Virus record (IMG/VR): IMGVR_UViG_3300046782_000291
Location: 1 to 64,000 of that record
Length of the DNA stretch: 64,000 bases
Strand: one strand, 5' to 3'
DNA from: a virus
How positions within the stretch are numbered: position 1 is the stretch's first letter; every line of letters begins with the position of its first letter. Position numbers and translations under genes: made by a program. The notes below the pieces were generated by a model. It saw only the letters and a list, made by a program, of their open reading frames with translations. It made no database searches and was not told the origin of the DNA. Below, piece by piece: positions 25,422 through 44,172 of this stretch.

Positions 25422-28400
25422 ATGGCATTGCAGCTACTGGTCGCGGGAACGGATCGCACGAACTTCCTGCTGACTACACCCACACCAAAATTCACCCGCA
25501 AACAGAATGAGCGGGCGATGGTCGAGATGTCGTTCAAGCCGGGGTTCCTCCCGGCGCAATACGCGGACTTCACGATCAACGACGGCGCCACCACCATCTT
25601 CCGAGGTGTCTTGATTCCCCACCTCGTGGAGTATGACCGTGGTCGGTCGCCCATCGGTGTCGAGTGCACAGGGTATGACTACGCCTTCTTCGAGGATGTG
25701 TGCTACTGGACAAAGAAGTACACAGGCCCAAAGACGGCGAAGCAGATTCTGACCGACCTGGTGGCGGAGAAGTTGAGTGTCTATGGCATCACGCTGGACC
25801 CAGCCCAAGACAACGGTGACACATTCACGGACTACGCGGTGGACGGCGTGCTCGTGGCGGACGTGTTGCGACAGTTGGGTGATGCCCATCTCACGCCTCG
25901 GGTCCATCTCATCTCGCCACTGCGCCAGCTGAAGCTGTATGTCCCAGGGACCGTCAATGCGCCGTTCTCAATCACCGACGCAGCGGCATCGTTCTATACC
26001 CTCGGGTGGTCCTATTCGGACGTCACACCAGTCAACGATATCACCATCGCGTTCGGTCCGAGTTCGGTGGGCGATACCGCGATCACTCAGATCTGGATCG
26101 GTGACGGGACCACTCGGGTCTTCTCGCTCAAGGGTATCAACATCCACTCATCGAGTGAATGGCCCGGTGTCTGCTTCGTGGGCGGTGTCCAGTTACCGGT
26201 CTGGCCACCAGGGCAAGGTCCGACCGATCACATCGAGTGGGACTATGCGACCAATGATGGGCAGCTGACGTTCATTGGGGGTGGGACAGCGAGTGCGCCT
26301 GGAGTCGGTGTTCCGATCCAGATCACTTACTTCCCGCAATACCCGTTCGAAGTCAACGCGACGACGGGTGCGACACCGAAGTTTGAAGTGCGCTTGTCCG
26401 ACGACCAGACACCGACCTACCAAGTGGCGGTGGCCAGCGTCCAGAGTGAACTCCTCAAGCGGAACATGGTTCCTCGGGAGTTGCTAGTTTCAACGTGGCA
26501 ATACTGCGAGCCAGGCCAGCGGCTCTCGGTCCAGAACGCGGCCAGAGCGTTGCCCACTGCAACGGTGTTCACGGTCGCAGAGATCAATGCGGAGTACACT
26601 GAGTTCTTCTCCCTCGGAACGCGGCTGTGGGTGTACACCATCCGCGCAACCGAGACGACCATCTACCAGGGTTCCTATCTCGACCAGATTCGTGAGCTGT
26701 TCAGCGGCGGTGGGAGCGGTGGCGGCGGCACCGTTCTGATCCCACCCTCGGGAGGTGGCGGCGGTGCGATGTCGCCTCTCCCTCCTGGCTACATCTACAT
26801 CGGCGATAGCACGAGCACTGCCGTTGCGAATCCGGTCACTGGTGACATCGTACTATCCACGACAGGTCGTATGGACATCGCGGCGGGTGCGATTGTCAAC
26901 GCGGATATCAGCGCGACGGCTGGGATCACCGATAACAAACTGGCGACGATTAGCACGTCTGGGAAGGTGGCGAATAGTGCGACAACGGCGACACCGAACA
27001 ACGTCGCGAACACGATTGTATTGAGGAACTCAAGTGGAGACTTCTCTGCTGGTTCTGGCTTCTTTGCTTCGCAAGTCGCAGGAGCGGAAGTCTATGCGAG
27101 CAGCTTCTTCATGGGTCCACTCCTCAAGACGAATGCGAACATAGACATAACGATCTCACCGGGAAATGGTGGTGGTGGGCATCTCCGTCTCACGCCCTCG
27201 GTGAACCTCTGGCTGGACCCGTTCAACGTGGTGGTGCTACGAGATACTAAGCCACTCACATCCTCGACGGTGTATGCGAGTGGCTTTGGTGGCACAGGCT
27301 TTACGCTCAATCATAGCCAGACGTTCACCAATCAGTCATACCTTGAACTCGACCAGCTACGCGTGCGCGGCGTGATGAATGTGTATGAGTTCGTCGTCAA
27401 TCAGATCCGTTCAACGAACGGAAATCTGTTCGTCACCAACTGCGCTCGCATTTCGAGTGTCTCTCTAGTCAATACGAATTACTACGACATCTTCACGGAA
27501 GCACCACACGGCTTTCAACCGAACGACCTCATTAGAGCGCAGCGCTTCTCTGCCGCTGGTGGGGGCGCTGCAGTCTTCCAGACTGATATCATCGTTAATG
27601 CGTTAGGTAGCGATGTCTGGTTTGGTGGAACAGTCCTCTCGGGACCTCCTCCCGCACCTGGGATGGACTTTGTGCGGTTGGGGAATACGACAGACTCCAC
27701 TCGTCGAGGGTCTATCTATCTGACGGCTGATGACGTGAATGCGCCGTACATCAACGTCTTGAATGGAGTGGACTCCATTGCGGCGTGGGGCGCGCAGTCT
27801 ACGCTGCGAGTGCGGCTCGGGAACCTCATTGGATCGTATGGATACTCCGGCGCACCGGTCTATGGGCTCGCCGCAGGCAATGCAGCTGGAGCGTGGTTCT
27901 CGATAGATGCCACGAACGGTCTGCGGATGAGCTACGGCTCGACCGTCTACATGCAGATTGACACGGTGGGAAACGCGACCTTCTCTGGAACGGTCCGAGT
28001 GGGTAACGTCACGATTGACCAGAGTGGTATCCGAGTTGCTCCTTACTCCGGGTCTTTCAGCTACACCGCTGCGTATATGTTCGATATTCCGGGGCCAGCG
28101 GCTCCCAGCAATGGTATCGGTTACTGGTCCAGCATTGATGGTAATGACATTCGGACGCTTGAAATCTCTCATGACTGGAATGGGAATGGGAATAAGCCGC
28201 ATCAACTCTGGCTTCATGCACGCGGTGACGGTATCGGCAGTGCTGGGGCAGGAGCCGTAAGTGCTAACATTTATCTCTATTCAGATGGTGGTGGTTCTAC
28301 CTACAGTCCACGTATTGATTTTGCCTTAGGTGTCGGTGGTGGACCGGTTGATAGATACCTCCGATTGCAGCCTTCCGGTCTTTCATGGGACACGGTGGTG

Positions 28401-29129
28401 GCTTACGGTTCCCATGCGGAAGTGATCATCGCGAACTCAGGCCTCATCGCTCGAAGAGATATCGGAAATGTTTTTGCGGGAGGCATGACTATCAACAACA
28501 CGCTGAATGTCAACGGTATAACGCAGTTCGCGACGGCGTGTTACTTCAATGGCCTCATCCAGTCGCAGAGCGTTAGTCCGAATATCCAGATGTTCAAGAC
28601 GAATGGCGCGGTCAACGAGAAGTATACGCGCTGGCTCTCAGACGCCTCGGAGTGCGACCTTCAGCTGGTAGACGACGGCTACTCGGTGGCAACGAATACC
28701 ATTCGCACGACGCGCATTCAGCATGTAATAGCCACTGTAGAACGTGGAGATAACCTCTCGACATTCAACGTCGTATCGGACATGAACGCGAAGACGAACG
28801 TGCGCCCAGTAAGCAAGGCGACTCAGCGCGACTTGATGCGGTCGCTGCAGATTTACGAGTTCGACTACACCGGCGACTTTGGCATCAAGGTGGGGCCTGG
28901 GATTGGGCCACTAGCGCAAGAGGCGATGGCGGTCTTCCCGAACTCTGTCCAGACGATCATGCGGTCGCGCCATTCTAGCGACCCAGACCCTGTAAACTGG
29001 AGTGCGGCAGAAGCCTTACTGGTGTTCAATCCGGATACGCTCTATATGGCACACGTCGCGTATACCCAAGCTCTTGACGATGAAGTTGAGCTATTGAAAG
29101 CACGAGTGACTGCGCTAGAAGGGCTGTAG
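25422..29129 (+). CDS. Tail hub/fibre protein with C-terminal S74 chaperone domain
   Basis: A 1,235-residue tail-tip protein. Residues 1-430 resemble a tail hub (FRGVLIPHLVEYDRGRSPIGVECTGYDY; YTGPKTAKQILTDLVAEKL...). A glycine linker (GGGSGGGG, about 428-450) leads to a fibre region with IVLRNSSGDFSAGSGFFAS and long beta-repeat stretches. The C-terminus (about 1125-1235) is a Peptidase S74 intramolecular chaperone: SDMNAKTNVRPV with the Ser-Lys dyad region, LMRSLQIYEFDYTGDFG, GPLAQEAMAVFP, and a terminal coiled coil. S74 domains fold trimeric fibres and then cut themselves off. The stop overlaps the next start (TAGTG). Confidence 0.85.
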   Translation: MALQLLVAGTDRTNFLLTTPTPKFTRKQNERAMVEMSFKPGFLPAQYADFTINDGATTIFRGVLIPHLVEYDRGRSPIGVECTGYDYAFFEDVCYWTKKYTGPKTAKQILTDLVAEKLSVYGITLDPAQDNGDTFTDYAVDGVLVADVLRQLGDAHLTPRVHLISPLRQLKLYVPGTVNAPFSITDAAASFYTLGWSYSDVTPVNDITIAFGPSSVGDTAITQIWIGDGTTRVFSLKGINIHSSSEWPGVCFVGGVQLPVWPPGQGPTDHIEWDYATNDGQLTFIGGGTASAPGVGVPIQITYFPQYPFEVNATTGATPKFEVRLSDDQTPTYQVAVASVQSELLKRNMVPRELLVSTWQYCEPGQRLSVQNAARALPTATVFTVAEINAEYTEFFSLGTRLWVYTIRATETTIYQGSYLDQIRELFSGGGSGGGGTVLIPPSGGGGGAMSPLPPGYIYIGDSTSTAVANPVTGDIVLSTTGRMDIAAGAIVNADISATAGITDNKLATISTSGKVANSATTATPNNVANTIVLRNSSGDFSAGSGFFASQVAGAEVYASSFFMGPLLKTNANIDITISPGNGGGGHLRLTPSVNLWLDPFNVVVLRDTKPLTSSTVYASGFGGTGFTLNHSQTFTNQSYLELDQLRVRGVMNVYEFVVNQIRSTNGNLFVTNCARISSVSLVNTNYYDIFTEAPHGFQPNDLIRAQRFSAAGGGAAVFQTDIIVNALGSDVWFGGTVLSGPPPAPGMDFVRLGNTTDSTRRGSIYLTADDVNAPYINVLNGVDSIAAWGAQSTLRVRLGNLIGSYGYSGAPVYGLAAGNAAGAWFSIDATNGLRMSYGSTVYMQIDTVGNATFSGTVRVGNVTIDQSGIRVAPYSGSFSYTAAYMFDIPGPAAPSNGIGYWSSIDGNDIRTLEISHDWNGNGNKPHQLWLHARGDGIGSAGAGAVSANIYLYSDGGGSTYSPRIDFALGVGGGPVDRYLRLQPSGLSWDTVVAYGSHAEVIIANSGLIARRDIGNVFAGGMTINNTLNVNGITQFATACYFNGLIQSQSVSPNIQMFKTNGAVNEKYTRWLSDASECDLQLVDDGYSVATNTIRTTRIQHVIATVERGDNLSTFNVVSDMNAKTNVRPVSKATQRDLMRSLQIYEFDYTGDFGIKVGPGIGPLAQEAMAVFPNSVQTIMRSRHSSDPDPVNWSAAEALLVFNPDTLYMAHVAYTQALDDEVELLKARVTALEGL

Positions 29130-29278
29130 TGAAACATCGCCATCCAATCGCGTGGACGGTCTGGGTTGGTCTCGCAGTGATGGCTATTGGAGTGATATTG
29201 ATTCTCGTCTACTTGGAAATGCGCGCAGTGCACACAGCATGGGGCTTTGGACATTTGCAGAAGGGTCGAGGTTACTAG
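29129..29278 (+). CDS. 49-residue single-pass membrane protein
   Basis: Starts at GTG 29129 inside the preceding TAG stop and ends at TAG 29278, one base before the next ATG. It has one strongly hydrophobic helix (TVWVGLAVMAIGVILILVYL) after a basic MKHRHP start, and a short cytoplasmic-looking basic tail. The size and fold would suit a small holin- or spanin-like factor, but there is no lysis enzyme next to it. Confidence 0.6.
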   Translation: MKHRHPIAWTVWVGLAVMAIGVILILVYLEMRAVHTAWGFGHLQKGRGY

Positions 29279-29279
29279 G

Positions 29280-31322
29280 ATGCCGTTATTGAGTCCAGAC
29301 AGTGGTTTCGTTCTTGCGGGTGTTGGCGGAGGTCGAATCTACCTCGGGAGTATGCCTGAGCCATGGTTGCTCGCGATTCCACCCGGTCTGGAAGACATGA
29401 TCGGCGGTGGTTGGGCATTTATCGACAACGACACCATCGGCGGGAACGGGTCCATCGACAACATCCACTGGAAGTTGTGGGCCTACTCCATTTCGACGCG
29501 CCAGCGGTGGGTGCTGGACGAACGTGGTGCATCGAACTTCTATGGTGGGGGAGGCAAGTGGTGCGCGTATCTCGCGGACCCGAGTGGTCTCATCAGTTTC
29601 GACAGCGATGGGATGGAGCGCACCGACCTCGTGGCCCGTGGAATGTCACCCAACGGGGAAGCCCTCTACAGCACGCACGAGAACAATGAGCTGTTCGTTG
29701 GGAGCATGAAGAACGGACTCTCACCGATTGCGTCGGGCACCGTCCTGTCCACGATGATTGGCGTCGATGACGTCGTGCTCTGGGCCAACTCCGCTGGCGT
29801 GCTCGGCTCAGATCCTGAGGCTCCGCCCGTCTGCCCCTATTCCGGTGGTGAGGGCGCACGATTCACCTCGGGTTCGGTTGCCGGCAATCGCGCACTGTGC
29901 CAGTGGGACCGAGGAACGAACGCGCTGGTGGTCTATCCCTGGCAGGCGACTCCGCCAGAACTGACCGGCTACAAGCTGAGCGTCGGCGTCGATGAGCATC
30001 GTCACGACATCGGCTACCATCACAGCGGAAACTATCTCATCGCCACCGGCGTCAACCTCGGGGAGACCCAGATCCGCATCTATGAACTCAACCTCGTCAA
30101 TCAGGAGTTCCGGCTCAACGGCGGAGGGTGGCAAGACCTCGTTCCCACTCGGCTCGATACGGCCCAGATCACCATCCCCACGTTCATCTTCAATCACGAT
30201 GTCACCCTCGCGGTGTTCAAGGACCTGGACGGCGACTCCGGCTCACCGGCGGAGATTCTGGTCAACCAACAGGACCAGATGGTCGCTCGGCCATACTTCA
30301 TGGCGGAAGACACGATGGATGGAGAGACGCAAGGTGAGTTGCTTGGCATCTACTCGGAAGCCGTCGATCCAAGCTACGTCGTGGACCTGGCGAATCAGTT
30401 TGAGACACGGGTCCTCCTCGGGCACGACAGCGTCTCTGACTGGGATCTTCCTCAGCTACCGCCGTGGTCCATCCCTGCGATTGAACTCTACCCTTCGGAA
30501 CAAGAGACAGCGGCCCAGAGTGCTGAACGTTGGCACCGGCAGATCCAGTCACTCCTCAACCAGTGGCCCGGCGACGTGGGCGTCATCCCCGCGTTCTACT
30601 GCATGGGCGGAGCACCTCCGGATGAGCTGTTTCCGGTCTCCCATATCATCGAGGGGCTGCACCATCTCCAGGACATTGTCAACACGAGCCATCGTATCAA
30701 GGTCATCGCGCCGTTTGCCTTCGACCGCGCGAATGGGATCGTGGCGCACGATGAGTTGATGGATGCCTGGAAGAACCTCGTGAGCGCGTGCCCACGGCTC
30801 GCGATGTTGACGCCTGTCGGTGAACCTGTTCCACCGGAGCCAGGACCTGGACCGGGGCCAGGACCTGGACCCGAGCCTATTCCACCCAACCCCGAACCTG
30901 GACCGGAGCCTGAACCCATGCCCACGTTACCCTTCAAGTGTTTTCTGATCGCTGGCCACAACAGCAAGATCCCGGCGGTGGAGCCTGGGTCGCATCATCT
31001 TGACCTGGACTACTCTGTCCAGGAGACCGGCCCATACCAGCAGGTCGAAGTCAAAGCCTCGGAAGAAGCCGGGCATGTCCTCGCACGCTACGTCGAAGAC
31101 GGCTGGTACCTCCGGCTGGACACGGTGCTCCTGATGGAGCGTAAGTATGACGCAGCACTCCAGCTGTACGATCCCAACAAGCCTGACCTCGACTCCGGCT
31201 GGCAGCGATTCAAGATTTACGGCTCGCTGCTGATTGGTGAAGGCCCGGATGTCAACGGCATCCGTGGTGCGGCGTACACCTTCACGATGGTGGACTCGGA
31301 CAAAAAACCGCTTTTCAACTAG
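29280..31322 (+). CDS. Tailspike-like protein, upstream part of a frameshifted pair
   Basis: A 680-residue protein; ATG 29280 preceded by GAGG. Residues 1-400 look like a beta-propeller (repeated blades such as KLWAYSISTRQRWVLDERG, LFVGSMKNGLSPIASG, RIYELNLVNQEFRLNG). Residues 400-515 contain TIM-barrel-like text (GVIPAFYCMGGAPP). A proline/glycine linker (PEPGPGPGPGPGPEP, about 518-545) precedes a small beta domain. The zero frame stops at TAG 31320 just after an A6 run, while convincing coding continues in the -1 frame for another 1.1 kb. The two parts together would form a tailspike or depolymerase of about 1,060 residues. Confidence 0.72.
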   Translation: MPLLSPDSGFVLAGVGGGRIYLGSMPEPWLLAIPPGLEDMIGGGWAFIDNDTIGGNGSIDNIHWKLWAYSISTRQRWVLDERGASNFYGGGGKWCAYLADPSGLISFDSDGMERTDLVARGMSPNGEALYSTHENNELFVGSMKNGLSPIASGTVLSTMIGVDDVVLWANSAGVLGSDPEAPPVCPYSGGEGARFTSGSVAGNRALCQWDRGTNALVVYPWQATPPELTGYKLSVGVDEHRHDIGYHHSGNYLIATGVNLGETQIRIYELNLVNQEFRLNGGGWQDLVPTRLDTAQITIPTFIFNHDVTLAVFKDLDGDSGSPAEILVNQQDQMVARPYFMAEDTMDGETQGELLGIYSEAVDPSYVVDLANQFETRVLLGHDSVSDWDLPQLPPWSIPAIELYPSEQETAAQSAERWHRQIQSLLNQWPGDVGVIPAFYCMGGAPPDELFPVSHIIEGLHHLQDIVNTSHRIKVIAPFAFDRANGIVAHDELMDAWKNLVSACPRLAMLTPVGEPVPPEPGPGPGPGPGPEPIPPNPEPGPEPEPMPTLPFKCFLIAGHNSKIPAVEPGSHHLDLDYSVQETGPYQQVEVKASEEAGHVLARYVEDGWYLRLDTVLLMERKYDAALQLYDPNKPDLDSGWQRFKIYGSLLIGEGPDVNGIRGAAYTFTMVDSDKKPLFN

Positions 31323-32467
31323 GCCCAGCGACTGAGCCGGTCACTGGGCCTATTCACGTTGACGGCGTTGCGTTCAAGACGGAGACTGGCGAGGGCTGGC
31401 AGTGGCGCGGGTCCACTGATTTCCTCCTCTACTGGCGCTGGCTGACTGGTCAAGACATCGAGCCGGTCTTGCAAGACCGGATCAGCGCTGGTGTCAACCT
31501 CGTGCGTGTCCTGGGCATGGTGGATAGCTTCGAGCACTTCTATCCACAGGAGCATCCCGAGTATTACACTCGGCTCCGCCCCTTCGCAGACATGCTCGCA
31601 TCCCGAGGGTTGCGCATGGAGTTCGTCCCATTTGCGGATGCACTCATCATCATGCCCTCGGAGTCGCAGCGTGAGGAGCACGCGAACCGAGTCATCGAGG
31701 CGTTGGCCCACCATCCCGCCGTCTTCATCGAACCGGCCAACGAACCGGGTCATGGCGACCAGATCAGCGAGGAAGAAGCCCATACCCTCGGACTGCGGAT
31801 GCAAGGGCAAGGCATTCCCATTGCCACGAGCATCTGGGCAGAGTCTATTCCCGAGGGGACAACAGCCGTTCCAACACTGGACTTTGGCACGCACCATCCG
31901 GACCGAGGTGATGAGTGGCCTCGGTTCTGCCGCGCACTCGATGAGGTGTGCAAGGGCTGGGGTTGGCCGGATGGAACCTCGTTTGCCGGTTTGCACGTGC
32001 CGATGGTGGGCGACGAACCGATGGGTGCGGCGGAGACGGATCAACCTGGTCGGCGTTCGAATGTACCCAGTGACTTCCGGGAGTATGCGAACGGGTGCGC
32101 ACTGATGGGTGCCGGCGCGACGTTCCATTCAGACGACGGCATTGACTCCGTGGTCTGGGGTCCGAAGCAGCGGGAGTGCGCACTGGCCTTCTTCGCGGGG
32201 CTCAGCTACGTTCCCGTCGAATGCCAGTTGGCTCCGTATCAGCGTGGCGGAGCGGGTGGCGGGTCAGGCGTGGGCAACATGCCCATCGTCCACTACGATC
32301 TGAACGAGAACACCGACCCAGGCGCGTTGCGCAGCTACGCGAAATTGGACAAGGACGGGAACGAATACGCACTGGCCATCCGCGCCACGGTTCCCGATCT
32401 GGTGCCACGCGACGGCTGGCGGTTGGTTGAGCAGCCGTTCCGAGGGATTGGCAAACTGACGCGGTAG
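31304..32467 (+). CDS. Glycoside hydrolase-like protein, downstream part of frameshifted pair
   Basis: The -1 frame is open from 31241 to 32467 with no ATG or GTG near its beginning; the first possible start is TTG 31469. Protein-like text nevertheless begins right after the A6 run: GPIHVDGVAFKTETGEGWQWRG, the usual opening of a clan GH-A domain, followed by ISAGVNLVRVLGMV and FIEPANEPGHGDQ, in which NEP is the canonical acid/base motif of GH5-type enzymes. The domain thus appears complete only if joined to the preceding frame by a -1 shift (programmed, or caused by an indel). Likely role: degrading a host surface polysaccharide. Confidence 0.7.
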   Translation, partial: KTAFQLGPATEPVTGPIHVDGVAFKTETGEGWQWRGSTDFLLYWRWLTGQDIEPVLQDRISAGVNLVRVLGMVDSFEHFYPQEHPEYYTRLRPFADMLASRGLRMEFVPFADALIIMPSESQREEHANRVIEALAHHPAVFIEPANEPGHGDQISEEEAHTLGLRMQGQGIPIATSIWAESIPEGTTAVPTLDFGTHHPDRGDEWPRFCRALDEVCKGWGWPDGTSFAGLHVPMVGDEPMGAAETDQPGRRSNVPSDFREYANGCALMGAGATFHSDDGIDSVVWGPKQRECALAFFAGLSYVPVECQLAPYQRGGAGGGSGVGNMPIVHYDLNENTDPGALRSYAKLDKDGNEYALAIRATVPDLVPRDGWRLVEQPFRGIGKLTR

Positions 32468-32470
32468 GAC

Positions 32471-32575
32471 GTGGACGAACCTGATCCGTATCTGTGGGTT
32501 CTGAAGCTCTTGCCCGCGTTCCTTGTCGTTGTAGGAGTCTTGGTATTCCTGCTGACTAGTAGACGAAGGAAGTAG
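32471..32575 (+). CDS. 34-residue membrane protein
   Basis: GTG 32471 to TAG 32575. Acidic start MDEPDPYLW, one hydrophobic helix (VLKLLPAFLVVVGVLVFLL), then a basic end TSRRRK, which gives an inside-positive topology for the C-terminus. No strong Shine-Dalgarno (TAGGAC). Very small; reality supported by the tight packing (three bases after one stop, eight before the next start) and clear membrane-helix design. Confidence 0.5.
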   Translation: MDEPDPYLWVLKLLPAFLVVVGVLVFLLTSRRRK

Positions 32576-32582
32576 AGGTCAT

Positions 32583-32723
32583 ATGAGATTGGTCTTGCTT
32601 GTGTTCGCGTTGGTGTGTTTTGTCCTCGCCACGTTGACGATGACGCAGCCCTACCATCCCCGTCTACTTGCGGCTGGGCTGGCATTCCTCACCGCGTCGA
32701 TGATTCCCTGGCCGGTGCTCTGA
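32583..32723 (+). CDS. 46-residue two-helix membrane protein
   Basis: ATG 32583 with AGAGGT nearby; ends at TGA 32723. Two hydrophobic stretches (VLLVFALVCFVLATLTM and LLAAGLAFLTASMIPW) separated by TQPYHPR make a hairpin in the membrane. Its size and topology would suit a small holin. It follows the 34-residue membrane gene by seven bases. Confidence 0.55.
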   Translation: MRLVLLVFALVCFVLATLTMTQPYHPRLLAAGLAFLTASMIPWPVL

Positions 32724-32877
32724 CGTGGCTGGAAGAAGGGCACGAAGTTCTCCGCCGACTCGGGGCGGAGTCGGGTAAACTCGGGAGGACCTCCGAGGGC
32801 TGGTCTTCGGGAGGAACCACTGGGCGTAGCTATCCTAGTGGAGTTGGTTGAATGCGCGTTCAAGAGAGTAGGTCCGA

Positions 32878-33549
32878 ATGAAGAAGACGTTGATGTTCCT
32901 CGCGTGTCTCGCTGTCGCTGGTGTGGCGTCAGCAAGCACCATCTTGCAATTCACCCAGGTCGGATTCAACACACCGTTCGTGTTCTCCGGCAATGGGACG
33001 ACGACCACGTTGGCGGCGACGAATGTGCCTATCGTGGTGGTGTTCGATCCGAACTTCTGCCTGGTGGTCGGCTGCGGCGGAGTGACGCCGGGGTTGTTCT
33101 CGTTGAACGTGTCCGCGACCAGTACGGGTCCGGACACGGTCGTGGGCACGGCGTTGACGCAGCAGTTCAGCGGGAGTCTGTCGATCACGCAGGGCGCGAC
33201 GAACTTGCTGAGCGTGCTGTTCTCGGATCTGACGAGTGGGAGCGTTGGTGGGTCGAATCCAACGATGCAGGCGAGTCAGCCGCCCAATACGTTCACGGGG
33301 TCGAGCAACGTGCTGGACCCGGCCAAACTCGGGTTGCCCAGGGGCTTCGCGTTCAGCTTCAGCAATATGAGTCCTGGCTTAGCCTCGTTCGGCACGTCCA
33401 TTCGTAGCGGACGGGCGGATGCGACGGGCACGTTCAACGCCACACCGGTTCCTCCGGTGCCGGAGCCGGCAACGATTGCGTTGTTCGGCACTGGGTTGAT
33501 CGGGATGGCGGCACTGGTGCGACGGAAGCGCCAGCAGCCGAGAGTGTAA
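32878..33549 (+). CDS. PEP-CTERM sorting-signal protein
   Basis: A 223-residue secreted protein. Residues 1-20 are a signal peptide (MKKTLMFLACLAVAGVASAS). The middle is a Ser/Thr/Asn/Gly-rich beta-type domain with two close cysteines (FCLVVGC). The C-terminus is a textbook PEP-CTERM signal: VPEPATIALFGTGLIGMAAL followed by RRKRQQ, that is, the PEP motif, a membrane helix and an arginine-rich tail. Such proteins are processed by exosortase (EpsH/XrtA) in Gram-negative, exopolysaccharide-making bacteria. It is in the same direction and spacing as the late phage genes and ends the operon, so it looks like phage cargo acquired from the host. A role in surface alteration or superinfection exclusion is speculation. 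Confidence 0.85.
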   Translation: MKKTLMFLACLAVAGVASASTILQFTQVGFNTPFVFSGNGTTTTLAATNVPIVVVFDPNFCLVVGCGGVTPGLFSLNVSATSTGPDTVVGTALTQQFSGSLSITQGATNLLSVLFSDLTSGSVGGSNPTMQASQPPNTFTGSSNVLDPAKLGLPRGFAFSFSNMSPGLASFGTSIRSGRADATGTFNATPVPPVPEPATIALFGTGLIGMAALVRRKRQQPRV

Positions 33550-33577
33550 GCCCTCGGGATTGGGCCCCGTGGGCTTT
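33548..33577 (+). terminator. Hairpin after the PEP-CTERM gene
   Basis: AAGCCC (33548-33553) pairs with GGGCTT (33571-33576), extended inwards past a T-T mismatch by CGGG/CCCG. It overlaps the stop codon of the last rightward gene and is followed by a few pyrimidines (TTTC-like). Probable terminator of the late operon. Confidence 0.5.
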
Positions 33578-33578
33578 C

Positions 33579-33609
33579 ACATGAACGCCGATGGACATGA
33601 ACGCCGATG
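33579..33609. repeat. Tandem repeat, two copies of a 16-bp unit
   Basis: ACATGAACGCCGATG occurs at 33579-33593 and again at 33595-33609, separated by a single G. It lies in the convergent gap after the late operon. Confidence 0.85.
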
Positions 33610-33787
33610 TCAACAAGGCGTGACTTCGCTGGGTGGAGAGAACCCAGCACTTTGAAGTCGCTGCTCAACACCACCACTGCTTGAACTCCAGTGGCCTCAA
33701 TCCGTAGTGATGTCTCTCCCTTATGGATTTGGTTTGAGCAGCGACTTGAAGGTGGTTGATGACGGCGGGAGGGCGGGAACGGTCCGA

Positions 33788-33802
33788 GGGCGGGAGGGCG
33801 GG
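33788..33802 (+). other. G-quadruplex motif with single-base loops
   Basis: GGG C GGG A GGG C GGG: four G-triplets with loops of one base, the pattern expected to form a very stable parallel quadruplex in the RNA of the rightward operon (and in single-stranded DNA). A mirrored motif is on the other strand at 39293-39307, also downstream of an operon. Confidence 0.7.
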
Positions 33803-33814
33803 AAGGATTGAGGA

Positions 33815-33908
33815 CGGCTCCGGGCCACCGTAGGGCTGGCGCGGACGGAACGCCTGGAGGGTACCCCAGCCCTCCAGGCGTTCGTCGTTTCTACGTGGCC
33901 CCGAGCCG
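33815..33908. terminator. Large two-level dyad, probable bidirectional terminator
   Basis: Inner stem: 14 perfect base pairs, GAACGCCTGGAGGG (33848-33861) with CCCTCCAGGCGTTC (33870-33883), 8-nt loop. Outer stem: 33815-33833 with 33891-33908 (about 17 bp, one mismatch and one bulge). Lies between convergent operons. Parts of its sequence (GGCTCCGGGCCAC, GTAGG, and CCTGGAGGG with CCCCAGCCCTCC) recur in the other large dyad region at 39270-39425. Confidence 0.65.
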
Positions 33909-33940
33909 AAATCCGGACGGCTCCGGGGCGGGTCCGAGGG

Positions 33941-34297
33941 TCACGCGTCCTCCTTCTTCGGCTCCGGGGTGATATCGGCCTTGTACTTGGCGTGGCGGAG
34001 TGCCTGCTGGATGACTCCTGCCACATTCTCCCTCGGGAGTCCAGCCGCCCGAGCCGCATGGACGGCTCTGGTGATGGCCCCACTGAGTTCGATCATGGCG
34101 GAGGTTTCAGCGGTCTTGCCTGAATGGACGGGTTTCATCGCTCTGATCTCCTGGTAGCAGTTGTCACAGACGATCTCCATTGGACCGCTGTCGTAGTCCA
34201 CGCCGAAGTTCCGCTTGAGTTCCTCGGCAGCATCCGCGTGCGAGGTGACCGTTTCAAACGACCGGCCACATGCCGCGCAGGTGAACATGACCGTCAT
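33941..34297 (-). CDS. Zinc-ribbon protein, unknown function
   Basis: A 118-residue protein with two CxxC knuckles (FTCAACGRSF near residue 6 and IVCDNCYQEI near 44), spaced as in zinc ribbons, followed by a helical C-terminal half (AARAAGLPRENVAGVIQQALRHAKY). Last gene of a leftward operon. Starts at ATG 34297, overlapping the TGA of the 28-residue membrane gene before it. Confidence 0.75.
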   Translation of the reverse strand: MTVMFTCAACGRSFETVTSHADAAEELKRNFGVDYDSGPMEIVCDNCYQEIRAMKPVHSGKTAETSAMIELSGAITRAVHAARAAGLPRENVAGVIQQALRHAKYKADITPEPKKEDA

Positions 34298-34380
34298 TGT
34301 TGGTTCTTCTTTTGTCCAAGGTTGTACCCGAGGATGAAGATGCCGACGAAGATGATGAGTTGGACCAAGTCATGCATCAT
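34294..34380 (-). CDS. 28-residue membrane protein
   Basis: ATG 34380 overlaps the stop of the upstream gene (ATGA) and its own stop overlaps the next ATG in the same way. It encodes MMHDLVQLIIFVGIFILGYNLGQKK plus three more residues: one membrane helix with a basic tail. The double 4-base overlap strongly suggests a real, translationally coupled gene despite its size. Confidence 0.6.
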   Translation of the reverse strand: MMHDLVQLIIFVGIFILGYNLGQKKNQQ

Positions 34381-35084
34381 TCACCCAATGCCTTTCTGAG
34401 CGCCTCAAGCTTGGCTCTCAATTCCGCGTTCTCATTCGTGGTTGCGATGAGATACTCGCGCATGTCCTGGAGACTCTTGATCATCGTGTCGAGAATCTCC
34501 ACCGACACGTCCACCATCTGCGCCGATGACCGGAGGATGGACTTTGGGACGCCGGTGCGGTGTTGCTTCTTGCGAAGGTTGCTCACCATCTGAGCGAGGG
34601 ACATCTCAGTGGTGACAATCTCCATCTCCTGCGCCTTGATGAGAAGGGCACGGGCATTCTCGATGTTCGTCTTGCTGAAGTCAACGAACGGATGGAGGGC
34701 TTTCAATCGGCCTTGCTTCGGTTCGGTCTCGTCACGGGTTTTCTTCTTCACGTCGTCCTCGCTGGTCTGGGTGGGTCGATGAAGGGCCAGGAGTTCTCGC
34801 ACCTGGCGTGCGATGACTCCGGTTCCCTCGGGGTTGAAGATGGTGATCTGTTTCTTCCGGGCTTCAGCGACGATCTTGCCGAAGGCGGCATGGCTGATGA
34901 ATCGCGTCATGAAGATGGCGCGTGTGTTCGAGGGAAGGTCCTTGTCGGTCCAGTGCTGATTCTGGCTTTCCCACATGACCACCCTCGGGTTCTCCTTGAT
35001 GTCATCATCAAAGTTGCTCGCCTTCGTGCCCACGAGCAAGACGACTCCGCTGTCTAGTGGCTGGAGGGGTTTGTCGGTGTTCAT
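34377..35084 (-). CDS. DUF2325-like N-terminal domain with helical C-terminus
   Basis: A 235-residue protein. Residues 10-100 have an alternating strand/helix plan, VVLLVGTKASNFDDDIKENPRVVMWES, TRAIFMTRFISHAAFGKIVAEARKKQITIF, reminiscent of the DUF2325 Rossmann-like domain in which strand 1 ends in a VGG-type loop and a SHA motif follows a strand. The C-terminal half is helical with a coiled coil (MIKSLQDMREYLIATTNENAELRAKLEALRK). Function unknown; possibly a regulator. Overlaps both neighbours by 4 nt. Confidence 0.6.
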   Translation of the reverse strand: MNTDKPLQPLDSGVVLLVGTKASNFDDDIKENPRVVMWESQNQHWTDKDLPSNTRAIFMTRFISHAAFGKIVAEARKKQITIFNPEGTGVIARQVRELLALHRPTQTSEDDVKKKTRDETEPKQGRLKALHPFVDFSKTNIENARALLIKAQEMEIVTTEMSLAQMVSNLRKKQHRTGVPKSILRSSAQMVDVSVEILDTMIKSLQDMREYLIATTNENAELRAKLEALRKALGE

Positions 35085-35482
35085 GGTTCAATTCTCCCAT
35101 CTGGGTGGATCACGTAGATGGTCCTCGATTGTTTCCGGGCGTAGCGCACCGTGGACCACGTGCCCGAGCGGAGGGTCTCCGAGGTTCGAGGCGCAGCGAT
35201 GAGCACGTGTGACGCGTCAACGATGTGCTTGTTCCTCTGGAGATACTTGAAACGCTCCGCCACGTGACCGCCTTGACAGAAGGCACGCTTGATGGACTCT
35301 ATCGGCGGATGGACCACGATCCGGATCTTGAGACTCCTCGCGAGATTGTGCGCCTGTGCGTCTGCGCCGATACAATCGCCATGATGGAGTTCGGTGGCTC
35401 CGAGTTGACCGAGGAGGTCCACCACGGTGGTGGATTGCTCCTCGGTCATCCCGTGTGAGGTGCCGGTGAAGCCGATAATCAT
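35081..35482 (-). CDS. SLOG-family Rossmann protein
   Basis: A 133-residue protein of the SLOG/DprA-LOG type: IIGFTGTSHGMTEEQ, LHHGDCIGADAQAHNLA, IRIVVHPP, RNKHIVDASHVLIAAP, and SGTWSTVRYARKQ, the last being the nucleotide-binding GGTxxxxxxA-like loop. ATG 35482 has GGAGGGCG directly upstream and overlaps the ligase stop. SLOG proteins bind nucleotides or nucleotide-derived ligands; a role in sensing or hydrolysing modified nucleotides is possible. Confidence 0.75.
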   Translation of the reverse strand: MIIGFTGTSHGMTEEQSTTVVDLLGQLGATELHHGDCIGADAQAHNLARSLKIRIVVHPPIESIKRAFCQGGHVAERFKYLQRNKHIVDASHVLIAAPRTSETLRSGTWSTVRYARKQSRTIYVIHPDGRIEP

Positions 35483-36348
35483 TCGCCCTCCTCCGCCCAG
35501 CGGTCCCACCGAGGGTGCCGATAGTTCGCGCCGATTTTCTCCTGGTATTCAATACGCAGGCGACGACCAATCGCGGGATGTCCATCCATCCAATCCACCG
35601 GGGCTTCTGCCTCGAACGCACGGCACTGCGCATCGTCGATGGTCTTGACTTGCGTCTCCACGCCGTCGTCATCCCTCAGCACCGTCACCGCGTAAGGTCC
35701 ACGATTCATGATGGTGCCTTTGGACGCCTGGAAGCCGATGACCGTGAGCACCGCCGTCTTCAGCCCCTTGAGCTTGATCCAGTCCTCCTTCGGACGTTTC
35801 CCTGGGCTGTAGCGAGCCGCAATGCGCTTGACGATGAGCCCTTCCTTGCCCATCGCGAACATGTCGGCCAGGAGTTGGTTCACATCCGGGAAGGAGTTCA
35901 CCTTGACCACCAGCGAGAGGCGGAGGTGGCGCGACTGGATGTGTGGTCGTTTGAATATCTCCTCCAGATACGCACGCCGTTCGGTCCACGGCTGCATGAT
36001 GGTATTGGTTCGGAGGAGTTCTAGCACGTCGAAGATGACGTACACCAGGCTGGACGCCTGGGTGAGTTCCGTCACATTGTGAGACTTACCCTCGGGTGCG
36101 ATGAGTTCGCCATCGTAGATGCCGTTGGGTAGCTTGACGAGGGCGGTGACGAGGTGGAAGGGCAACAACCGGACCTTCCCGTCACGACTCCACGCGGTGA
36201 TGACCGCCGTTCCGTTGAGCGGCACTTCGCTCCGTTCCACGATGAGCCGGTGCCCATCATATTTTTGTTCCGCTACGTATTTGCCTGGAGTAATCACCAG
36301 TGGCGTCTTGGGCATCGCTGCTGCTAGCATGGGTTCTATGAAGCTCAT
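35479..36348 (-). CDS. ATP-dependent DNA ligase
   Basis: A 289-residue minimal ligase. Motif I EQKYDGHRL (about 28-36; K30 is the AMP acceptor), motif III YVIFDVLEL (about 103-111), motif IV KEGLIVKR (about 169-176), motif V DWIKLKG (about 190-196), then an OB-fold C-terminal domain (TVIGFQASKGTI...RLRIEYQEK). It seals nicks in replication and repair and lacks the large N-terminal domain of cellular enzymes. It lies in the operon with an SLOG protein and an HNH nuclease. Confidence 0.92.
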   Translation of the reverse strand: MSFIEPMLAAAMPKTPLVITPGKYVAEQKYDGHRLIVERSEVPLNGTAVITAWSRDGKVRLLPFHLVTALVKLPNGIYDGELIAPEGKSHNVTELTQASSLVYVIFDVLELLRTNTIMQPWTERRAYLEEIFKRPHIQSRHLRLSLVVKVNSFPDVNQLLADMFAMGKEGLIVKRIAARYSPGKRPKEDWIKLKGLKTAVLTVIGFQASKGTIMNRGPYAVTVLRDDDGVETQVKTIDDAQCRAFEAEAPVDWMDGHPAIGRRLRIEYQEKIGANYRHPRWDRWAEEGE

Positions 36349-36689
36349 TTGAAACGTCCTTTGGTATCACGTGATTGGTTACTATGAGAACCTTCGAACA
36401 CTCCAGTCATCGCTCCTTCTCTGGCGTGGTCGGCTTGGTGTTGCTTCGCGTTGATAGCTTCTAGGTTGTCTGGGCTATCATCTGAGCGGTCGCCGTTGAT
36501 GTGGTGAGCTACTTCCTCCTGGACCAAGAGTCTGCCTAGCTTCTCCTCCAACACAAGGTCCGCACGCTTGGCGTAGTTCCTAGATGCCCGGTGGTATCCT
36601 GGTTTCCAGATGTAACAGTAGTCCTCCGTCCATTTGACTCCGCCCTTCCAATTCCAGTGGAGTGGGCCAGACTGGTCTTTCAAGCTCAT
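36345..36689 (-). CDS. HNH endonuclease
   Basis: A 114-residue protein with an HNH_3-type core: VAHHINGDRSDDSPDNLEAI (about 60-79) and a third element KQHQADHAR. A start-proximal WNWKGGVKW motif and C-terminal basic DTKGRFK fit free-standing homing endonucleases common in phages. It overlaps the ligase gene (ATGA) and the DUF3846-like gene, so it is either an operonic nuclease or a well-integrated homing gene. Confidence 0.85.
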   Translation of the reverse strand: MSLKDQSGPLHWNWKGGVKWTEDYCYIWKPGYHRASRNYAKRADLVLEEKLGRLLVQEEVAHHINGDRSDDSPDNLEAINAKQHQADHAREGAMTGVFEGSHSNQSRDTKGRFK

Positions 36690-36931
36690 TGTTTGTCTCC
36701 TGTCTCCAGAACCACGACGTTGCCGACGAGTGCCATGCCGAAGAGGTGCGAGGCTATCGCGTTGAAGGGCAGGCCGGTGAGCATTCCCTCCTCATTGCAG
36801 TAGGCACGGGCGTTGGTTCCCGGCACCGCCTCGATGTAGCCACCCACCGCCTGCTGGAGTTGCTCCAGAGTCACCTTGCGACCCTGGAGATCCACCTGTT
36901 CCATCGTCCCATCCGCCTTGTAGATTTTCAT
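36686..36931 (-). CDS. DUF3846-like small protein
   Basis: An 81-residue protein matching the DUF3846 plan: LEQLQQAVGGYIEAVPG, ...AYCNEEGMLTGLPFNAIAS and ALVGNVVVLE. This family is frequent in phage and plasmid early regions; its function is unknown. Overlaps neighbours by 4 nt. Confidence 0.8.
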   Translation of the reverse strand: MKIYKADGTMEQVDLQGRKVTLEQLQQAVGGYIEAVPGTNARAYCNEEGMLTGLPFNAIASHLFGMALVGNVVVLETGDKQ

Positions 36932-37257
36932 GAGTTCACCTCGTGTTCGAGGTCGTTGAGCGCCTCTGCGGTGCCCGGGTCCTCGATGGTGAGGTCATCG
37001 TGGTCCTGGACGAACGACTCGAACGTCGTGATGAACTCATCCACGGCTTCGCCGCGTTCACCCTCTTGCCACGCCTCTGACTTGTCGTCGAAGTCTCCAC
37101 GCATTGACGAGGCCAGGTCTTCCACGAACCCTTTGGCGAGGTTCAACTGGACGTTGTACGCGGTGACCGCTGCCTCCACCTCCGCGAACGCGGTGTTGAG
37201 GTTGTCGCGGTGCTTCATGAGTCGTTCGGTGTCGGTCTTCTTGAGTTTGAATGACAT
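36928..37257 (-). CDS. Helical protein, unknown
   Basis: A 109-residue protein that is almost all helix, starting basic (MSFKLKKTDTERLMKHRDNL) and becoming strongly acidic (FVQDHDDLTIEDPGTAEALNDLEHE). Shine-Dalgarno AGGAGAG in front of ATG 37257. No family recognised. Confidence 0.72.
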   Translation of the reverse strand: MSFKLKKTDTERLMKHRDNLNTAFAEVEAAVTAYNVQLNLAKGFVEDLASSMRGDFDDKSEAWQEGERGEAVDEFITTFESFVQDHDDLTIEDPGTAEALNDLEHEVNS

Positions 37258-37292
37258 GGTTCTCTCCTTGTTGGTTGACGTGAACTCGGGAT

Positions 37293-37529
37293 CTAGTAGC
37301 CTTCTCCGCTGCCGGAGGTTCCGCTGTGCCGCCCCCGGCCACCGGAGGGCTTCCCCGGCTGGCCGGACAACGCGGCGGTCAGGTAGTGCGTCGCGCCTCT
37401 GAGAAGGACCTCAGCCAGCGCCTCGATGTGCTGGTCTGCGGTCTTCGCATCGGTGTTTAGGTCGCTGTCCTCGATGACTACGGTGGCGAATCGTCTGGCC
37501 ATACGAGCAATGAATGCCGGGTCGCTCAT
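37293..37529 (-). CDS. Small protein with helical core and Gly/Ser tail
   Basis: A 78-residue protein. Helical MSDPAFIARMARRFATVVIEDSD...QHIEALAEVLLRGATHYLTAAL is followed by a disordered PGKPSGGRGRHSGTSGSGEGY tail. Starts four bases inside the end of the helicase gene. Unknown. Confidence 0.68.
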   Translation of the reverse strand: MSDPAFIARMARRFATVVIEDSDLNTDAKTADQHIEALAEVLLRGATHYLTAALSGQPGKPSGGRGRHSGTSGSGEGY

Positions 37530-39058
37530 CGGGTCTCCTTCCGGTCGTCAACGACGTAGACCAACTCATGCTTGGCCCGAGTGATGGCGACGTATTGAAT
37601 GTTGAGTTCCTCCTGGTTGTGGTGTTTCATCGTGTCCTGGAGCACGAACACGCGGTCTGCTTCCAGCCCCTTCGCCTTGTGGACCGAGGAGCACGTCACC
37701 ATGCCCGCGATGCCCATCCCATCGTCCTTGAAGAGTGCATCAATGCGATCCTCAACGTGGTTGACGGAGTCTGCCCCGTCTGCGAGGCTGATGAGCATCG
37801 AGGCTTGGTCACGAATCGCCTCAATCTTGCTCTCCACGGTCCGCTGGCGCTGGTCTGTCGAGCCGACCAACAGCATCTCCAGCCGGGCCACCTCGCGGGC
37901 TTCCCACAGGCCGATCTTGTTGAGTAGGTCCTCGACCGAGGCACCCTTCATCCGTCGCACGAGGCTGGTGAGCCCCATGCCGATGTCCCGTCCTGCAACG
38001 CGGGCACGCTTCCCCGCGCGGAGGAGCCGCATGGCGATGGAGACCAGCGGAGCGTTGACCCGGCTGAGTACGAAGTCACCTGGACCGGCTGCGCCCGGTA
38101 GTGCGGTCAACCCGAGGTGGCTCACAAGACCCTCGGGATTGTTGGGCCCAGCCTCAAAGTCTGGCACGAACATCCGTGCCTCCTCGACAATCGCGCGGCC
38201 GCAGCGGTAGGTGGTCTTGAGGCCCAGTTCGTCCGCGCTCAGTTCCTCCTTCAGCCGGTCCAGCGACTCGCTGTCGGCTCCTCGGAAAGCGTACACCGCC
38301 TGGCAGTCATCGCCCACAATGCACATCTTCCCACCGTCTCGGAGGATGCCGAGGGTGATCTCCAGCTGGGTGGTCGTCAGGTCCTGCGCTTCATCGACGA
38401 TGACGCGGTCATATTGCTTGACCAACCACCCATTCCGGACGGGCAGAAAGATCATGTCGCTGAAATCGATCAGTTCACCCGACTTGACCTGGGACGCCAG
38501 TTCCATCGCGTCCAGTGCCTTCTGCTCGACATATGCGGCCCCAAAGCCCATCCGTGTCCAACGCTCCTCGGGTTCGCATTCGAACTGGATCTGGAGGCTG
38601 GTGAGATCACCGAGGGTGGTGGCATGGGGCGCCATCTCCCGCCCCTTGGTCATGAGCTTGGAGACCAGCCGCTTGATGGTGTCTGGAACCTCCTTGCCGC
38701 AGACACCGTTCACGAGTCTATCAGCGCGCAGGCCGCGTTCCTCTTTGCTCTCTGGATGGAGTCGTTCCCGGAACATCAGCGAGCACGCGAAGCTGATGGA
38801 GTGGATCGTCTTGGAGATGGCCCTGGTGCCCTTCAATCGAGCGTTCAGAACTATCTCGATGGGCTTGTTGAACGCGCACACCATCACATCCTCGTGACTC
38901 GGGATGCGCCGCACGCCTTCGACGATGGTCGTGGTTTTGCCCGTGCCGGCACGAGCACGAACGACGAGGTGGTGGATGATCTCTTGTGGACTTGCGAACC
39001 AGTTGAAGATTGCCGTCTGCTGGCTTGACCAGACCACGGCGGTTGTCGTGCTACTCAT
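37526..39058 (-). CDS. UvrD-like superfamily 1 DNA helicase
   Basis: A 510-residue helicase starting at ATG 39058 (MSSTTTAVVWSSQQ). Motif Ia/Q region WSSQQTAIFNWF, Walker A ARAGTGKTTT (about 33-42), Walker B VIVDEAQDLT (about 218-227), motif III IVGDDCQAVYAFRGAD (about 250-265), motif IV TYRCGRAI, and C-terminal motifs VHKAKGLEADRVFVL and YVAITRAKHELVYV. It unwinds DNA in replication or repair. It is the first gene of the leftward operon that ends at 33941, and a long structured gap lies upstream of it. Confidence 0.9.
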   Translation of the reverse strand: MSSTTTAVVWSSQQTAIFNWFASPQEIIHHLVVRARAGTGKTTTIVEGVRRIPSHEDVMVCAFNKPIEIVLNARLKGTRAISKTIHSISFACSLMFRERLHPESKEERGLRADRLVNGVCGKEVPDTIKRLVSKLMTKGREMAPHATTLGDLTSLQIQFECEPEERWTRMGFGAAYVEQKALDAMELASQVKSGELIDFSDMIFLPVRNGWLVKQYDRVIVDEAQDLTTTQLEITLGILRDGGKMCIVGDDCQAVYAFRGADSESLDRLKEELSADELGLKTTYRCGRAIVEEARMFVPDFEAGPNNPEGLVSHLGLTALPGAAGPGDFVLSRVNAPLVSIAMRLLRAGKRARVAGRDIGMGLTSLVRRMKGASVEDLLNKIGLWEAREVARLEMLLVGSTDQRQRTVESKIEAIRDQASMLISLADGADSVNHVEDRIDALFKDDGMGIAGMVTCSSVHKAKGLEADRVFVLQDTMKHHNQEELNIQYVAITRAKHELVYVVDDRKETR

Positions 39059-39292
39059 TGCGTTCTGCCCTTCTTTGAATGCTGCCCAGCAAATGCCGAA
39101 GCAACCGGTTGCTCTACTTCCCCGACTGAAACTGACCCTCGATTCTACGTCCGGACGCCACCCGAGCGGGAGAACTAAATTGCGCCCGTTCCCGGAGCCG
39201 TCCGGAGCCGTCCGGGAGGACCAGCCGCCTGCCGCCCTCCCGCCCTCGGAGCCGTCCGGGAGACCCGCCCTGGAGGGTTCCCCAGCCCTCCG

Positions 39293-39307
39293 CCCTCCCG
39301 CCCTCCC
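39293..39307 (-). other. G-quadruplex motif on the leftward strand
   Basis: Read on the minus strand: GGG A GGG C GGG A GGG with single-base loops. It is in the sense strand of leftward transcripts, about 160 nt beyond the terminator hairpin of the ribozyme operon. Mirrors the motif at 33788-33802. Confidence 0.65.
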
Positions 39308-39352
39308 GGAGCCGTCCGAGGGCCCAGGAACGGCCCAGAAAACGGCTCCGGG

Positions 39353-39425
39353 CCACGTAGGACTGACGCAGATTTGGGGCCATCCTACCCTACAGGCCCC
39401 CTCCCCGATCGTCAGTCCTACGTGG
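39353..39425. repeat. 16-bp perfect inverted repeat (large dyad)
   Basis: Arms 39353-39368 and 39410-39425 are perfectly complementary; an inner 6-bp stem (39376-39381 with 39395-39400) sits in the loop. The left arm and preceding bases (GGCTCCGGGCCACGTAGG) are almost the same as in the dyad at 33815. Termination or protein binding are both possible. Confidence 0.75.
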
Positions 39426-39466
39426 CGGTAGCGGGTCGGAAATTGGCCGCGCAGGGACCCGGACAT

Positions 39467-39514
39467 GCGAAATGCCGCCCGGAAGGGTTTTCACCCTCCC
39501 GGACGGCATTTTGC
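39467..39514 (-). terminator. Terminator of the ribozyme operon
   Basis: A 16-bp hairpin (39467-39482 with 39499-39514; one mismatch, one G-T) whose arms contain AAATGCCG and CGGCATTTT, about 40 nt past the last stop codon of the leftward operon. The leftward reading ends in a short T run (ATTTCGC). The same GCGAAATGCCGCC word occurs in the terminator at 46254. Confidence 0.72.
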
Positions 39515-39553
39515 GTCCTGCACCGGTGACGTCCGTCACCGTTCCGTTCCTCC

Positions 39554-39637
39554 CTACAACGTCGCCAGCACGCAGAGCATCGCGAGGATGCCGGCGATGA
39601 CGAAGCCGATGATGAGGTCCTTCGTCCAGTTCTTCAC
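39554..39637 (-). CDS. 27-residue membrane protein
   Basis: GTG 39637 overlaps the previous stop (GTGA). Encodes MKNWTKDLIIGFVIAGILAM plus LCVLATL: a short basic start and one membrane helix. Last gene before the terminator hairpin. Supported by the 4-base overlap and composition only. Confidence 0.55.
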   Translation of the reverse strand: MKNWTKDLIIGFVIAGILAMLCVLATL

Positions 39638-39840
39638 TTGCCCTCCTCGGTGGCCTCGCGCACGTCGATGACCTTCACCATCGAGTCGTTCTGCGGGTGA
39701 TTCATCGCCATCTGCACGCGGCGCTCAACTTGCTTCGGCGTTTCGGAGCCGTCCGACTCGATCACGAGGACCCGAGCCTTGCCTGACCGTCTTCGTGACG
39801 TGGTCGTCATCGGAACAACGGTCACCAGATACTTCTTCAT
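39634..39840 (-). CDS. Small basic protein, unknown
   Basis: A 68-residue protein. ATG 39840 follows GGAGG at good spacing. Sequence MKKYLVTVVPMTTTSRRRSGKARVLVIESDGSETPKQVERR suggests a two-strand/one-helix fold with a basic loop. Unknown function. It is downstream of the first-listed ribozyme unit, together with genes 39853 and 39554. Confidence 0.65.
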   Translation of the reverse strand: MKKYLVTVVPMTTTSRRRSGKARVLVIESDGSETPKQVERRVQMAMNHPQNDSMVKVIDVREATEEGK

Positions 39841-39852
39841 CACATCCTCCAG

Positions 39853-40218
39853 TCACATGCCGTAAGTTCGATACGGGAACGCGGGCTTCACGAAGGAGAT
39901 GCGCTGCGTGTAGTCCAACGCTTCCCACCGTGCGAAGAGATTGGCGCGGTCTTCCGTCGTCCAGCTGCGCGTGCGCTCCTTGAAAATCTCCTCTGGTCTC
40001 CCGGCGTCCAAGCAGATCTCAATCACCAGCGAGCGGGAGACCGTGACGCTGTTTACGCTCTTGCCCTTCTCCTCTGCGATGCTCGTCAGAAGGTCATAGG
40101 CAACCTCATTCCAGACGTCAGCGACGCAGCCCTGGATGAGCTTGAGTTCCGCCTCGTTGAACTCGATCCACGTGCCGTCCTTCTTGTTCTTGAACCCTCG
40201 CGTTGTCGTTGTCTTCAT
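39853..40218 (-). CDS. Unknown protein of the ribozyme operon (121 aa)
   Basis: Starts at ATG 40218, two bases after ribozyme 1; its Shine-Dalgarno GAGGTG is the 3' part of that ribozyme. The protein begins MKTTTTRGFKNKKDGTWIEF and is mostly helical (ELKLIQGCVADVWNEVAYDLL; TTEDRANLFARWEALDY). No family recognised. Confidence 0.75.
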   Translation of the reverse strand: MKTTTTRGFKNKKDGTWIEFNEAELKLIQGCVADVWNEVAYDLLTSIAEEKGKSVNSVTVSRSLVIEICLDAGRPEEIFKERTRSWTTEDRANLFARWEALDYTQRISFVKPAFPYRTYGM

Positions 40219-40220
40219 AA

Positions 40221-40284
40221 GGCACCTCATCAGGCCGGATGATTCCGGCGACGGACCGCGCGGTGGCGATCCGTTTCGTATGCC
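40221..40284 (-). ncRNA. Hammerhead ribozyme (type II), copy 1
   Basis: Leftward reading: GGCATAC-GAAA-C...G-UC-stem I-CUGAUGA-GGUGCC. Stem III pairs GGATC with GGTCC; stem I is GCCGG/CCGGC with a 6-nt AAUCAU loop. Predicted cut after GUC, between 40250 and 40249. The upstream gene's TAG (40285-40287) is directly adjacent; GAGGUG in the 3' arm serves ATG 40218. Confidence 0.88.
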
Positions 40285-40383
40285 CTACTTCCAGAAGTTC
40301 CGGAGGATGTAGCCCCACGTGAACCCTTGCTGCTGGAGCAACCAGAATCGGCGGACTGCGAGTCGCAGGTTGATCCGTCTCAT
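40285..40383 (-). CDS. 32-residue basic/aromatic protein
   Basis: ATG 40383 overlaps the previous TGA; TAG 40285 touches ribozyme 1. Encodes MRRINLRLAVRRFWLLQQQG and FTWGYILRNFWK: amphipathic, highly basic and rich in Trp/Phe. Could be membrane-active or a peptide that binds a host protein. Supported by overlap and by filling the space between ribozyme units exactly. Confidence 0.55.
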   Translation of the reverse strand: MRRINLRLAVRRFWLLQQQGFTWGYILRNFWK

Positions 40384-40764: not shown

Positions 40765-40767
40765 CGA

Positions 40768-41361: not shown

Positions 41362-41363
41362 AA

Positions 41364-42322: not shown

Positions 42323-42324
42323 GG

Positions 42325-42860: not shown

Positions 42861-42862
42861 AA

Positions 42863-43262: not shown

Positions 43263-43266
43263 GATA

Positions 43267-43325: not shown

Positions 43326-43366
43326 GAACCGGTGGCGAGCCGATGCCCGCCACCGGGCGTGTCGTC

Positions 43367-44170: not shown

Positions 44171-44172
44171 AA

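Follow-up and report, generated by a model that had tools for sequence, protein, structure and literature searches.

A phage genome was found to carry, at the end of its virion operon, a gene for a protein that by every sequence feature tested belongs to the PEP-CTERM class. The gene (32878-33549, + strand) lies in what we call the window, i.e. the whole stretch of 64,000 nucleotides that was analysed, which forms the first part of an IMG/VR record of 64,691 bp. The class itself is already known; what is new is that phages carry such proteins as a recurrent, modular and conserved family. We see an even chance that the protein is a phage-encoded substrate for the exosortase of the host, with which the phage alters the surface or exopolysaccharide of the infected cell, most likely for superinfection exclusion.

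The PEP-CTERM protein

The gene starts with ATG and encodes 223 amino acids. A signal peptide is predicted at residues 1-19 (32878-32934, + strand), reading MKKTLMFLACLAVAGVASA-S, from a hydropathy peak of 2.3 and an AxA site before S20, and it is conserved in alignment A1. The ectodomain that follows (residues 20-193; 32935-33456, + strand) is beta-rich in the structural model, rich in Ser, Thr, Gly and Asn, and almost without charge. At the C-terminus, the architecture VPEP-ATIALFGTGLIGMAALV-RRKRQQPRV combines PEP, a hydrophobic helix and a basic cluster. The VPEP sorting motif (residues 194-197; 33457-33468, + strand) is invariant in A1, the transmembrane helix predicted from hydropathy at residues 198-214 (33469-33519, + strand) appears as helix 197-218 in the model, and the basic cytoplasmic tail could be read directly from residues 215-223 (33520-33546, + strand).

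The family model PF07589 matched residues 193-216 with 29.9 bits against a cut-off of 20.7 (E = 5.3e-7), and TIGR02595 scored 29.6 bits against a cut-off of 16; both matches stop 5-7 residues short of the C-terminal end. When the whole record was searched in six frames, this gene was the sole match to TIGR02595 (E = 4.9e-9). A loose test for PEP, helix and basic tail, applied to reading frames of at least 120 amino acids, gave one hit in the window as it is, compared with zero in 300 codon-shuffled versions of it. The FLAC of the protein does not fit a lipobox, and A1 shows no conserved Cys at this place. As origins of the reading frame, chance, chimera and frame artefact were weighed and judged unlikely. 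The original prediction of a complete PEP-CTERM sorting signal was confirmed, with both models above cut-off, a signal peptide by hydropathy and AxA site, VPEP, the helix and the RRKR tail.

An AlphaFold2 model (17 sequences, pLDDT 74) consists of an all-beta ectodomain, with pLDDT mostly between 65 and 92, and a C-terminal helix. A Foldseek search with this model returned nothing significant. VIA-align returned generic up-and-down beta-barrels (cyclases, dirigent proteins, small outer-membrane barrels) with a best Z of 8.8, and Z values up to 8.8 are usual for unmatched models according to the tool. As the fold matches were generic beta-barrels only, we assign the protein no enzymatic or binding function from them.

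The phage genome and the surroundings of the gene

The genome is complete and circular or circularly permuted, because contigs from two other samples, more than 99.99% identical to the record, span its end (base 64691) into base 1. The stretch 32337-45497 was covered by no independent contig, and co-assembly across the PEP-CTERM gene comes from one assembly. The codon usage of the gene matches the phage model. The gene was predicted to be phage-encoded, and this was supported.

The virion operon lies on the + strand, and the replication and DNA-modification genes lie on the - strand. Family matches on the + strand identified a terminase (3542), portal (5186), major head protein (11043), head-tail adaptor (12793), tail tape measure (21825) and a fibre with an S74 chaperone domain (25422-29129). 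Downstream of the terminase, portal, capsid, tape measure and fibre genes, the PEP-CTERM gene is the last gene of the + strand and faces the convergent replication genes of the - strand; it closes the virion operon, as had been proposed. A strong intrinsic terminator-like hairpin of 15 pairs (33848-33883, + strand), which would close the late transcription unit, begins 300 bp past the gene end, and a search of 32300-34000 revealed no sigma-70-like promoter. The simplest assumption is therefore that the gene is transcribed by read-through from the late operon.

The gap from the last tail gene to the PEP-CTERM gene holds two tiny hydrophobic open reading frames without family matches. The first (32471-32575, + strand) would encode a possible single-helix membrane peptide of 34 amino acids with a GTG start and an RRRK tail. 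The second (32583-32723, + strand), directly upstream of the PEP-CTERM gene, would encode a possible small membrane protein of 46 amino acids with two hydrophobic stretches. Judged by where they lie and by their hydrophobic nature, they may belong to an envelope or lysis cassette. Family matches revealed no holin, endolysin or spanin in the vicinity of the PEP-CTERM gene.

No exosortase was found in the window or the record, and no tyrosine integrase in the complete record; the tRNA genes of the phage gave no pointer to the host. The original prediction had made the protein dependent on an exosortase from outside the phage, and this stood: the PEP-CTERM protein is complete, and the phage record lacks an exosortase.

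Other parts of the genome were also annotated. Two long reading frames without family matches follow the fibre gene (29247-32467, + strand); the second has ANEPG, which resembles the acid/base motif of glycoside hydrolases, and is possibly a polysaccharide-degrading part of the tail. The structural operon also holds glycosyltransferase-like genes (17016-19644, + strand), namely one with a weak family-2 match (17016-17666) and one matching phrog_2170 (18400-19644). On the - strand, a cluster at 50316-57661 probably encodes a thymidine hypermodification pathway, and the virion DNA is probably modified. It comprises a thymidylate-synthase-like gene (50316-51371), an HMUDK helical domain (52582-53460), a kinase-like gene with a weak HMUDK match (53958-54605), a radical SAM/photolyase-like gene (54521-55888), a PLP-dependent enzyme (55968-56771) and the amino acid:DNA transferase ADDT (56768-57661). 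The cluster also includes an MT-A70 methyltransferase (53453-53965).

Relatives, conservation and carrier phages

Exact-peptide scans of viral and bacterial contigs, phage records and plasmids returned no full-length close homologue of the window protein. These empty contig scans reflect the insensitivity of exact peptide seeds, because a motif-pattern scan of the same collection found relatives at 68-71% identity. A tblastn search with the consensus tail also returned nothing, probably owing to low-complexity masking. The degenerate DNA pattern, written for VPEPxTxxLxGxG(L), matched 108 stretches in viral contigs, and in nearly all of them the motif lay at the C-terminus of a reading frame and was followed by a helix and basic residues. 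The full-length relatives fall at 68-71%, at 55-59% and then at about 35% identity; the first level holds L191 (70%) and L193 (68%), the range being that across comparisons, and about 20 further full-length relatives were found at 32-38%.

Two further scans used the ectodomain only and thus had no bias towards the tail. The scan with alignment A3, which represents the branch of the window protein, L191 and L193, added L206, L207 and L208; the complete ones, L207 and L208, each have the PEP tail. The scan with another branch (A5) matched 88 viral contigs; 80 loci, forming about 60 clusters, were kept, and 76 of these had a complete C-terminus. PEP, helix and basic tail were present in 73 of the 76, while the three degenerate tails have SEP or VEP, again followed by a helix and a basic tail. 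Because scans without this bias still recover the tail, the sorting signal is, judged by sequence, a conserved part of this phage protein family. Values of dN/dS of 0.13-0.34 in the pairs compared indicate that the family is under purifying selection.

Whether relatives keep the C-terminal motif was one of the points on which the original prediction had been staked, and nearly all do so in the A5 set, as do L207 and L208. The same prediction had described the gene as unusual cargo. That it is phage-borne held, but it is no one-off: the family recurs in at least 88 other virus sequences.

The displayed part of the protein is exchangeable. The ectodomains of L142:1931-2581 and L174:2437-3093 are 92% identical overall and nearly identical in most blocks of 60 bases, whereas their signal peptides are only 57% and their tails 71% identical. 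The signal peptide and tail of L174 are closer to those of L100, L173 and L127. Since a common ectodomain is thus combined with different signal peptides and tails, the sequences indicate an ectodomain exchange between two sorting signals, in which both signals were kept while the displayed part was exchanged.

The carriers are diverse. The L191 copy lies near an HK97-type head protein, a terminase and RecT; copies of the L174/L142 type lie between the portal (phrog_156) and major head protein (phrog_334) on contigs of about 42 kb; and the L207 copy lies 1.5 kb before a terminase. Neighbours of the PEP clusters match terminase, portal, primase/helicase, methyltransferase and integrase families. 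The gene thus follows the tail genes in the window, lies between portal and capsid in the group of about 42 kb and beside the terminase elsewhere; its place at the end of the virion operon holds for the window phage but is not a rule of the family. In the wider set PEP genes also occur near replication genes, so that 'late' may not hold for all. Small single-helix genes adjoin the PEP gene in relatives too, and in L207 a lipoprotein-like and a two-helix reading frame lie between PEP gene and terminase.

When the stretches around the genes were compared, loci with close relatives had almost no detectable proteins in common with the window besides the PEP protein. The exceptions were one small gene in L191 and a primase/helicase in the more distant L149. 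This argues that the gene moves between unrelated phages. The gene was absent from 42 records of terminase relatives and from the nearest relatives of the replication and tail genes, and the ectodomain was not found in 99 Desulfobacterota genomes, in a search without a positive control. Two further records may be mentioned. L085 is a contig with an integrase-like gene and a fibre/tail gene 37% identical to that of the window, without a PEP-CTERM gene, and L185:2-1113 holds two tandem genes of the PEP-CTERM type in a record of 38.9 kb with a terminase.

None of the records of 23 long relatives contained an exosortase. Another test found one in a single record of 45 virus records, that of L140; overall, one of 67 virus records carries an exosortase. 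In this record (G084:C1:54485-55035) an exosortase-like reading frame directly adjoins the PEP-CTERM gene; the record is either an island of a host genome or a phage that brings a dedicated exosortase.

Many PEP genes are accompanied by a Pro/Gly repeat protein with (K/R/H)PDQGLPG units, which was found nearby in 44 of the 80 A5 loci (31 of 60 clusters). In controls, the same loose test found a PDQGLPG-repeat gene in five of 85 loci, and all five were copies of the window's own virus. These matches located the gene in the window itself, where it encodes 91 amino acids between terminase and portal (4873-5148, + strand) and is linked to PEP genes by association only. Such proteins also accompany the PEP-CTERM genes of several unrelated phages (L174, L190, L183, L207, L208, L167 and L089), without a family match where they were scanned. 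Rather than acting as a functional partner of the PEP gene, the repeat gene may be a marker of phages that share a host group.

Proposed role and comparison with known systems

PEP-CTERM proteins are known or proposed to be exported by Sec, held by a helix and processed by exosortase (PMC1569441), and their exosortase requirement and their roles at the surface and in exopolysaccharide have been described (PMC1569441, PMC12188702). On this basis, the phage gene would be read through from the virion operon late in infection. The protein would be exported by Sec, lose its signal peptide and stay anchored in the inner membrane through the C-terminal helix. A host exosortase of the XrtA/EpsH type would then recognise VPEP, cut off the tail and pass the beta-rich ectodomain on to the surface of the cell or to its exopolysaccharide layer. 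The altered surface would most likely block adsorption or injection by progeny and competing phages.

A change of surface or exopolysaccharide during infection is the likeliest purpose, because how the host behaves in the long term matters little to a lytic phage. Superinfection exclusion would be the likeliest benefit, as blocking re-adsorption and competing phages fits an exchangeable ectodomain best. The family as a whole suggests that many phages redecorate the host surface via the host's own sorting machine. More broadly, and just short of an even chance in our estimate, phages of exosortase-bearing bacteria would have widespread modular surface proteins that hijack the host exosortase, with interchangeable ectodomains between conserved export and sorting signals and often a PDQGLPG-repeat partner, and would thereby alter the exopolysaccharide-associated surface in lytic infection.

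The main rival is release from slime. The phage would flood or jam the host exosortase, or loosen the protein-exopolysaccharide matrix, so that progeny can leave slime-coated or flocculated cells, and the adjoining small membrane proteins would be a lysis or envelope cassette. This would be consistent with the final position of the gene in the late unit, behind the two small hydrophobic reading frames, with the single-helix genes next to relatives and with the two small reading frames of L207. Furthermore, floc and biofilm formation has been linked to PEP-CTERM proteins (PMC9850573, PMC12188702). However, a bare exosortase competitor would not need an ectodomain under purifying selection, and the small reading frames match no holin or spanin family; we regard this explanation as unlikely.

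Somewhat less probable still is that a host surface gene was taken up by phages and serves the host, either in lysogenic conversion or as a passenger. PEP-CTERM proteins are commonplace in exosortase-bearing bacteria, and some carriers have integrases (e.g. the records of L193 and L146). Yet a tyrosine integrase is absent from the window and from 19 of the 23 long relatives' records, so that lysogenic conversion is not the family's general use, and in unrelated phages and structural operons the family turns up repeatedly, at low dN/dS. Its place in structural operons might also point to a virion component that is exported or membrane-associated, but this is very improbable, as a Sec signal and sorting tail would take the protein out of the cytoplasm, where tailed phages assemble, and no virion family matches it. 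Least probable of all is an assembly chimera with a host gene, which the single-assembly stretch and the 42 terminase-relative records without the motif would allow, but against which stand a circle closed by contigs of other samples, phage-like codon usage and ectodomain relatives at 55-76% inside other phages.

If the broader reading, a modular class of phage proteins that hijack the host exosortase, is true, no earlier description of phages using the PEP-CTERM/exosortase pathway would exist. A search at title and abstract level of the open-access literature, a scope that excludes most subscription journals, found no report of phage-encoded PEP-CTERM proteins, and the one paper examined in detail concerns host genes. 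Our scans indicate that phage PEP-CTERM genes are common in a public virus collection. The sorting system is tied to exopolysaccharide, flocs and biofilms, and few of its substrates are understood; repeated acquisition and retention of the tag by phages would mean that the pathway is worth hijacking in infection. The family would supply small single-copy substrates for the study of exosortase, link phages to exosortase-bearing hosts and point to a testable surface-modification step.

Like bacterial PEP-CTERM proteins (TIGR02595, PF07589), the window protein has a signal peptide, PEP, helix and basic tail at the very C-terminus, and a low-charge ectodomain rich in Ser, Thr, Asn and Gly without known relatives. 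Unlike them, it is phage-encoded, usually present as a single copy and without its own exosortase; bacterial genomes with PEP-CTERM proteins carry a median of eight (PMC1569441). With the named NCBIfam PEP-CTERM families (THxN, EDSAP-1, PepA and others) it has mainly the C-terminal ~25-40 residues in common, but none of these families reaches its cut-off on the window protein, and the ectodomain forms a family of its own. Small exported proteins by which phages exclude superinfection through a change of the host surface include the T5 lipoprotein Llp and the Cor lipoproteins. The known phage surface proteins of this kind are lipoproteins or inner-membrane proteins. The window family would be a functional analogue of Llp and Cor, but it lacks a conserved lipobox Cys and would be delivered via the host exosortase.
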